Below, in pieces: positions 1,680 through 3,269 of a stretch of 64,000 nucleotides of DNA (its first letter is position 1; every line of letters begins with the position of its first letter). A model generated the notes under the pieces. The model did not search any database, was not told the DNA's origin, and saw only the letters and a list, made by a program, of their open reading frames with translations. The stretch comes from Solirubrobacterales bacterium (GTDB taxonomy: Bacteria > Actinomycetota > Thermoleophilia > Solirubrobacterales > Solirubrobacteraceae). Location: the NCBI GenBank assembly GCA_003132505.1, contig PKXY01000033.1, positions 66,847 to 130,846 of the forward strand, given 5' to 3'. Position numbers and translations under genes: made by a program.

Positions 1680-2567
1680 CTAGCGTGCCGCGGAGGGGGT
1701 GATGCCGTGGATGTCGAGCTTGGGGACTAGCTCGGGGTCGTTGAACACGTCGATCGCTAGCGCGCGGTCGCCGACGACCGTGAATGCGAGTACCGCGAAT
1801 GGCTGCTCGCCGTCGAATGCGACTGCGCCGGCGGCGCCGTTGACGAGCGCCGGGCGAACGTACGGCGCGAACCGTCGCGCGTTCATTGCGCCTTGCGCGA
1901 CTTGCGTGGCGCCGTGTAGCTCGAGTGGGTCGCCGTCGCGGCGGTGGGCGCGGAGCACTACGTTCGGGTCGAGTACCGCGACGAGTGCTTCGAGGTCGCC
2001 CTCGCGGGCAGCGGCGAAGTAGGCGTTGACGACTGCCCGCTGTCTAGTCATGTCCGGGTCGGGCGGCGGCGCCGCGTCGCGCACGCGGCGGCGGGCGCGG
2101 CTGGCGAGCTGGCGGGTCGCTTGGGGTGAGCGGTCGACCATCGCAGCGATTTCGTCGAACGGCACGGCGAACATGTCGTGGAGCACGAACGCGAGACGCT
2201 CGGCCGGACTGAGCGTGTCCAGGACGACCTGCAGCGCGATCCCAACGGCGTCCGCTAGCAGTGCTTCGTGCTCGGGATCGGTCCCGGCCACCGGGTTATC
2301 GATGATTGGCTCCGGCAGGAAGCTGTTGAGCGGCTGCTCGCCGCGTGTGCGGCGGGAACGCAGAATGTTCAGGCAGATCCGGGCGATGACAGTCGTCAGC
2401 CACGGCTCGAGGTTGTCGATCTGCTCGGCGTCGGTCCGCTGTAGCCGCAGCCACGACTCCTGCACGGCGTCGTCGGCCTCGGTCAACGAGCCGAGCATCC
2501 GGTAGGCAACCGCGCTGAGCTGGGGCCGCTGACGTTCGAACCGGTTGGCCAGCTCGAGGTCGTCCAT
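1680..2567 (-). CDS. ECF41/SigJ-type RNA polymerase sigma factor with C-terminal SnoaL-like domain
   Basis: Sigma-70 region 2 (QRPQLSAVAYRMLGSLTEADDAVQESWLRL) and region 4, plus a C-terminal SnoaL-like extension. The ORF-track start at 2606 lies in the putative promoter; internal ATG at 2567 preferred. Confidence 0.88.
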   Translation of the reverse strand: MDDLELANRFERQRPQLSAVAYRMLGSLTEADDAVQESWLRLQRTDAEQIDNLEPWLTTVIARICLNILRSRRTRGEQPLNSFLPEPIIDNPVAGTDPEHEALLADAVGIALQVVLDTLSPAERLAFVLHDMFAVPFDEIAAMVDRSPQATRQLASRARRRVRDAAPPPDPDMTRQRAVVNAYFAAAREGDLEALVAVLDPNVVLRAHRRDGDPLELHGATQVAQGAMNARRFAPYVRPALVNGAAGAVAFDGEQPFAVLAFTVVGDRALAIDVFNDPELVPKLDIHGITPSAAR

Positions 2568-2570
2568 CGC

Positions 2571-2634
2571 TGTCACACCGTCCGGGGTTCGCGGGTCATA
2601 CCCCATAGACCCGTGAATCCCGACCTATGTGACA
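2571..2634. promoter_or_regulatory. Mirror-symmetric pair of ECF41-like promoters
   Basis: Plus strand TGTCACA (2571-2577)-N16-GGTC (2594-2597). Minus strand TGTCACA (2634-2628)-N16-GGTC (2611-2608). Confidence 0.7.
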
Positions 2635-2645
2635 GGAGGTGCCCG

Positions 2646-3269
2646 ATGGCACGCATTCAGGGAGTATCGAAGAGCAAGGCCGGGCCGATGGTCAGGCTGG
2701 TCTACCGGTTCGGACCGAGGATGATGAAGAAGCTGACCGGCCGCGCACCGCAGGCGGGCAGCGGCCTGGAGCCAATGGAGATCTGGGCCCACCAGCCGAA
2801 GATGATGATGGGAATGGGCAAGTTCAACCAGGCGGTGCGCAAGGGGCGCTCCGTCGATGAGCGGCTGAAGAACCTCGTCGAGCTGAAGGGCGCGCAGATG
2901 ATCGGATGCGAGTTCTGCGTCGACCTCGGCTCGCAGATCTGCCGCAACAACGGTCTTAGCGACGAGGAGCTGCTAGCGCTACCGCGCTACCACCAGAGCG
3001 ATCTGTTCACCGACCGCGAGAAGCTGGCGCTCGACTACGCGGTTGCTGTGATGCGCACGCCGGTCGAGGTCACCGACGAGCTGTTCGCCCGAATGCACGA
3101 GCACTTCAGCGACCAGCAACTCGTCGAGATCACCGCACACCTGACGCTCGTCAACCTCGACCGCTTCAACGCCGCCTTCAGGATCGGCTCGGCCGGATTC
3201 AGCGAAGGGATGGTTTGCGTACCACCGGACCACCCCGCCGCCAACCGCACGCTCGCGAGGATCGCCTAG
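2646..3269 (+). CDS. Carboxymuconolactone decarboxylase family protein (ECF41 partner)
   Basis: CMD/AhpD-like CEFC motif (MIGCEFCVDLGSQICRNNG). Strong SD AGGAGGT at 2634-2640 ahead of ATG 2646; adjacent to ECF41. Confidence 0.85.
   Translation: MARIQGVSKSKAGPMVRLVYRFGPRMMKKLTGRAPQAGSGLEPMEIWAHQPKMMMGMGKFNQAVRKGRSVDERLKNLVELKGAQMIGCEFCVDLGSQICRNNGLSDEELLALPRYHQSDLFTDREKLALDYAVAVMRTPVEVTDELFARMHEHFSDQQLVEITAHLTLVNLDRFNAAFRIGSAGFSEGMVCVPPDHPAANRTLARIA

Follow-up and report, generated by a model that had tools for sequence, protein, structure and literature searches.

Genes and promoter motifs at the locus

The window, which is the whole 64,000-nucleotide stretch of DNA that was analysed, contains an ECF41/SigJ-like sigma factor gene and a divergently oriented gene of the carboxymuconolactone decarboxylase (CMD) family, separated by two promoter motifs of the same form on opposite strands. 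The features are listed below; the boxes, the centre, and the Shine-Dalgarno motif were read directly from the DNA.

1680–2567, minus strand: ECF41/SigJ-like sigma gene (295 aa, N67), start ATG at 2567–2565, with Sigma70_r2 and r4_2 domains
2571–2577, plus strand: −35 box TGTCACA of the CMD gene promoter, also part of the sigma mRNA's 5′ leader; conserved across a set of 126 distinct elements
2594–2597, plus strand: −10 box GGTC of the CMD gene promoter; the G variant is common to the clade of the window
2598–2607, no strand: 10-nt centre ATACCCCATA common to the two promoters, each of which is predicted to melt it; 8–11 nt in 126 related elements
2599, minus strand: predicted start of the sigma transcript (an A, nine bases past the −10 C), by analogy with RpoE9 and leaderless genes
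2605 or 2607, plus strand: predicted transcription start of the CMD gene (A in either case), on the same grounds
2608–2611, minus strand: −10 box GGTC of the sigma gene promoter
2628–2634, minus strand: −35 box TGTCACA of the sigma gene promoter, also inside the 5′ leader of the CMD mRNA
2635–2639, plus strand: Shine-Dalgarno motif GGAGG of the CMD gene
2646–3269, plus strand: CMD family gene (AhpD-like, 207 aa; the translation contains CEFC; PF02627, E = 4e-11)

An earlier reading of the sequence alone (the sequence-only reading) had described TGTCACA-N16-GGTC on the plus strand (2571–2597) and again on the minus strand (2634–2608) around a 10-nt centre. We confirmed both motifs and the complete overlap of the two promoters, which together form an imperfect dyad of 64 nt with 20 of 27 arm positions identical. 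A search of the 64-kb window for TGTCACA-N17-GTC returned two matches, both belonging to this element, against 0.12 expected, and none of 100 shuffled sequences reached two. One further match was found in the whole 2.75-Mb assembly (C18:86019); it lies within a 523-aa coding frame and was rejected as a promoter, being probably a chance match. Apart from the pair in the window, no intergenic match was found in the genome.

The best NCBIfam match of the sigma factor was SigJ (NF007214) with 244 bits, below the curated cutoff of 271, and the protein is thus described here as ECF41/SigJ-like and not as a SigJ member. Its best PDB match was Mycobacterium tuberculosis SigJ (5xe7; E = 2.6e-39). The protein has the ECF41 architecture of sigma2 and sigma4 regions followed by a C-terminal extension of approximately 100 residues: the sigma domains reach approximately residue 176 of 308 in the longer reading frame, and the alignment with 5xe7 covers residues 8–249 of 295, extending into the C-terminal part. 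The linker between sigma2 and sigma4 reads FLPEP in place of the ECF41 motif WLPEP (Wecke et al., 2012; PMC3426412). Among 81 sigma factors from loci of the same interlocked type, the final Pro (position 87) was kept in 67 and the Trp was mostly absent. The assembly encodes only one sigma factor of this type at E ≤ 1e-30.

Comparison with known ECF41 promoters

The ECF41 motif was mapped by 5′RACE in Bacillus licheniformis and Rhodobacter sphaeroides, and the target consensus is TGTCACA-N16±1-CGTC, as given in the same report (Wecke et al., 2012; PMC3426412). The two boxes in the window agree with this motif, as the sequence-only reading had proposed in calling them ECF41-type: the −35 box and the spacer are exact, and the −10 box is the clade variant GGTC. 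The targets presented there share with the window locus the motif, the C-terminal extension of the sigma factor, a neighbouring CMD, oxidoreductase, or epimerase gene (here CMD), and, at many divergent loci, promoters on both sides. Partner genes in 70 related loci were CMD genes (30), genes of the NAD-binding/NmrA/epimerase type (11), glyoxalase genes (9), and others.

Double promoters at divergent ECF41 loci are already known from this source, in which 55 divergent sigma/COE pairs carried the motif on the sigma side in 36 cases and on the COE side in 41. Since a motif on each side is frequent in such pairs, two promoters were to be expected at the window locus, and it was the interlocking that needed testing. 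The fixed interlocked spacing, the GGTC variant, and the link to a sigma residue are not described in the portions of the report available. Another related system is RpoE9/SMb20029 of Sinorhizobium meliloti, in which TGTCACA-N16-CGTC likewise drives a CMD gene adjoining an ECF41 sigma gene; there, the promoter precedes the CMD–sigma pair and reads in one direction, with no mirror partner reported (PMC6180224).

Fixed geometry of the interlocked element

We scanned 257 Gb of GTDB genomes with a pattern containing both arms and a free centre of 0–30 nt, a strict pattern that favours consensus arms. At least 118 stretches matched, against approximately seven expected by chance over all 31 lengths (a uniform-base estimate). 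Among the matches listed, the total span was 62 nt in 81, 63 nt in 26, 64 nt in five, and 65 nt in one, so that 113 of 118 fell between 62 and 65 nt; the other five were unrelated. Nearly all of the matches listed lie between an ECF41-like sigma gene and a gene transcribed divergently from it, and they come from Actinomycetota, Rhizobium and its relatives, Acidobacteria, Chloroflexi, and others. One of them, on pRL11 of the culturable strain Rhizobium johnstonii 3841 (454118–454179), is flanked by a CMD gene and a sigma gene. Four 84-nt matches from Prevotella/Phocaeicola (L036, L052, L086, and L132) proved to be an unrelated repeat that fits the pattern by its internal symmetry, and a 69-nt archaeal match, together with L129 and L142, was set aside as unrelated repeats or chance.

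Combining the GTDB matches listed with other loci under a relaxed −35 box gave 126 distinct elements. With spans of 58–70 nt permitted, 85 had a span of 62 nt, 31 of 63 nt, eight of 64 nt, and two of 65 nt. The spacer sequences have diverged among elements while the spans stay at 62–66 nt. The interlocked element was also present in the sister genome (G247; 83% sigma identity) and in a genome of the same genus (G002). Both boxes and both N16 spacers were conserved in orthologous loci, a point on which the sequence-only reading had staked its interpretation beforehand. A chance origin of the paired motif, for which only the short length of the boxes speaks, has a negligible probability in view of the shuffled sequences and of the conservation in these two genomes and in several phyla.

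Promoter layouts in a sample chosen by sigma similarity

We also used protein similarity, blind to the promoter motif, to collect relatives of the sigma factor in 299 genomes of the class. The interlocked pair was present in 25 of the 30 closest relatives. The next 40 contributed 11 interlocked loci and two with back-to-back, non-overlapping promoters, and the interlocked loci of this sample spanned 62–66 nt. Among 20 more distant relatives, no interlocked pair was found; 15 of them had a single promoter 540–1070 nt upstream, as expected for a promoter preceding an operon. The single arms at distant ECF41 loci indicate that the motif also occurs as a promoter lacking a mirror partner. Distant ECF41 loci carry either one promoter before an operon or two non-overlapping promoters with loose spacing. 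As judged from these comparisons, the interlocked arrangement is not peculiar to the window locus: within this sigma subfamily, divergent loci usually take this form.

The minority arrangement of two back-to-back, non-overlapping ECF41 promoters was observed at L197, L209, L216, L248, L252, L272–L274, and L276. A search across the phylum gave five back-to-back matches in 199 genomes, which argues that this alternative is not rare. The gap between the −35 boxes of back-to-back loci ranged from 6 to approximately 100 nt, whereas interlocked spans vary by at most 4 nt. A search for TGTCACAN{33,63}TGTGACA in 299 genomes of the class and 247 of the phylum returned mostly chance pairs and interlocked loci, leaving too few for a distribution. 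Separately, one genome contained four 52-nt palindromes ending in TGTCACA/TGTGACA (G433:C1:943663–943714 and three further places), which are probably a repeat family.

Predicted transcription starts and leaders

The S. meliloti RpoE9 promoter is printed as CGTC-ATGGTGTC-G, the start being apparently the last base (PMC6180224). At several single-promoter loci (L258, L260, L266, L269, L028, L017, and L013), an ATG lies exactly nine bases past the −10 C, which suggests that these genes produce leaderless transcripts starting at C+9. Applied to the window, this position gives A2599 for the sigma gene; for the CMD gene, the base exactly nine past the −10 C is T2606, so that a neighbouring A (2605 or 2607) is the more likely start. 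These predictions are close to the back-to-back starts that the sequence-only reading had placed near 2600–2605, and they lie approximately 6–9 bp apart. With C+9 as +1, each promoter of the 62-nt class is predicted to start at the G base-paired to its partner's −10 C. An A follows GTC in 93% and 72% of the two arms, as against 28% in single promoters; it suits a C+9 start, since it pairs with the T at −1 of the opposite promoter.

The assignment of the sigma start codon to the internal ATG at 2567, also proposed from the sequence alone, was supported by homologues, whose start codons lie no more than a few bases from the opposite −35 box, and the longer frame (ATG 2606) is disfavoured because its start codon would precede the predicted transcript. 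With the longest sigma frame opening at an ATG at 2604–2606 on the minus strand, an automatically annotated start may be 13 codons too early. Likewise, the GGAGG at 2635–2639 bears out the proposed CMD start at ATG 2646. Among the 126 elements, the sigma start codon lies −1 to +3 nt from the opposite −35 box in approximately 100, with offsets from −1 to more than 30 overall. A sequence resembling a Shine-Dalgarno motif occurs in the spacer of the other promoter on the sigma side in 93 of 126 elements and on the COE side in four of 126.

Such compactness raises the question of whether the overlap of two ordinary promoters is no more than a result of short divergent intergenic regions, with a geometry that is historical and without regulatory consequence. 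The compact layout, the proximity of the sigma start codon to the opposite −35 box, the Shine-Dalgarno-like sequence in the other spacer, and the existence of back-to-back, non-overlapping versions (L197, L209, L216, L248, and L252) are all in keeping with such an origin. However, the spans hold at 62–66 nt despite diverged spacers and despite the wide range of sigma start offsets, and the back-to-back loci show how loose the distance between −35 boxes can be. Because the start codon offset varies and the span does not, the constraint appears to lie in transcription initiation and not in the leaders, and we regard a purely historical geometry as rather unlikely.

Sigma residue 67 and the base before GTC

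The base preceding GTC was of the same kind in both arms of the element. In 83 dereplicated elements, the two arms carried C/C in 52, G/G in 13, T/G in 12, T/T in three, and other combinations in three. Comparison with 81 sigma factors identified residue 67 as the best-separating column (1.00), the next best reaching 0.48: Asp occurred with C/C in 50 and C/G in one, Asn with G or T in both arms in 28, and Thr with G/G in one and G/C in one. A further set of 33 loci, selected by sigma similarity and including single-promoter operons, gave Asp with C in 27 of 27 arms, Asn with G or T in 11 of 11, and Thr with G in seven arms and C in one. The rule for Asp, Asn, and Thr at residue 67, which belongs to sigma2, was seen with hardly an exception in interlocked and single promoters alike (L012, L013, L028, L029, and L211–L270). 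The window itself combines N67 with GGTC in each arm, a pairing also present in its nearest relatives, and N67 loci favour spans of 63–64 nt over 62 nt.

On the phylogenetic tree, the Asp/Asn label changes approximately 12 times; most of these changes sit on weakly supported branches, and the well-supported branches force only two or three. In an alignment made in this analysis on the motif W-x3-I-x2-N-x2-I-N, residue 67 would correspond to N92 of M. tuberculosis sigmaH, an Asn in contact with the −11 base pair (PMC6411747). The proposal that the C-to-G change at both −10 elements represents a co-evolved variant is supported by this tie to residue 67. Since residue 67 tracks the base before GTC, both arms are probably read by the neighbouring sigma factor.

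This co-variation also bears on the idea that the 64-nt palindrome is the operator of a separate dimeric regulator and resembles promoters incidentally. The imperfect dyad, the conserved spacing, and the location of boxes in both leaders would suit an operator; an unrelated regulator, however, would not produce a change of both arms with the DNA-reading residue of the adjacent sigma factor. Moreover, each single arm fits the experimentally mapped ECF41 promoter, distant ECF41 loci have one arm and no mirror, and the sigma and target genes at the locus have no third regulator gene between them. We therefore consider an operator highly improbable.

A proposed bidirectional ECF promoter

These data are best explained by a bidirectional ECF promoter with mutually exclusive occupancy, to which we assign a probability of roughly 80%. 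The two motifs, their fixed relative position, and the co-variation of both −10 boxes with the sigma residue that appears to read them are evident at the level of sequence comparison. We infer start sites and promoter activity at the element, and also, from the overlap and from sigma70 precedents, an occupancy that would be mutually exclusive. Simultaneous binding is implausible because the promoters overlap fully, and probably only one gene of the sigma/target pair can be started at a time.

In Escherichia coli, sigma70 bidirectional promoters show competition only at high activity, and this competition lowers noise (Warman et al., 2026; PMC12825309). As is proposed for the element described here, they hold divergent starts in one symmetric sequence and accept one polymerase orientation at a time. 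They differ in that a symmetric −10 is shared and the starts are commonly 18, 10, or 23 bp apart, whereas the element in the window comprises two full promoters, each with a −35 and a −10 box of its own, has more closely spaced predicted starts, and would be read by an alternative sigma factor that also controls its own gene. By analogy with the sigma70 promoters, exclusion may matter little at low activity.

In the proposed mechanism, the adjacent ECF41-type sigma factor would recognise TGTCACA-N16-(G)GTC on either strand, and RNA polymerase would be able to load in either orientation onto this single stretch of DNA. Depending on orientation, the outcome would be transcription of the sigma gene (autoregulation) or of the CMD-family target, the two transcripts beginning back to back in the shared centre. 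As one sigma factor serves both sides, exclusion would divide initiation and cap self-amplification: with one shared initiation site, the ratio of sigma factor to target would be tied and positive feedback limited at high activity.

The element would accordingly resemble a divider rather than the mutually exclusive autoregulatory switch suggested by the sequence-only reading, a suggestion that found no support. A bistable switch could appeal to the full overlap, by which one polymerase should exclude the other, as may be inferred from the sigma70 promoters (PMC12825309). Yet the same sigma factor acts at both promoters, so more of it raises both, and exclusion partitions initiation without by itself creating two states; we judge bistability improbable.

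Steric exclusion in the divider proposed here does not by itself account for spans that stay at 62–66 nt, because simple exclusion would tolerate many spacings. One possibility, which we advance tentatively and at somewhat less than even odds, is that in a widespread class of ECF bidirectional promoter the base pairs forming one promoter's −10 element double as its partner's initiation site, +1 of each being, in the 62-nt form, the C(−9) pair of the other. Firing in one direction would then necessarily use the melting element of the other, and the ratio of sigma to target initiation would be hard-wired by geometry.

The link between residue 67 (Asp, Asn, or Thr) and the base before GTC is near-perfect and amounts to a simple specificity rule, for which natural Asp/Asn pairs exist. 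ECF41 sigma factors are common, and we know of no obvious separate anti-sigma factor for them. What limits their self-amplification is a natural question, to which competition between the sigma factor and its target for one polymerase site, imposed by a conserved promoter, would be a concrete and testable answer.
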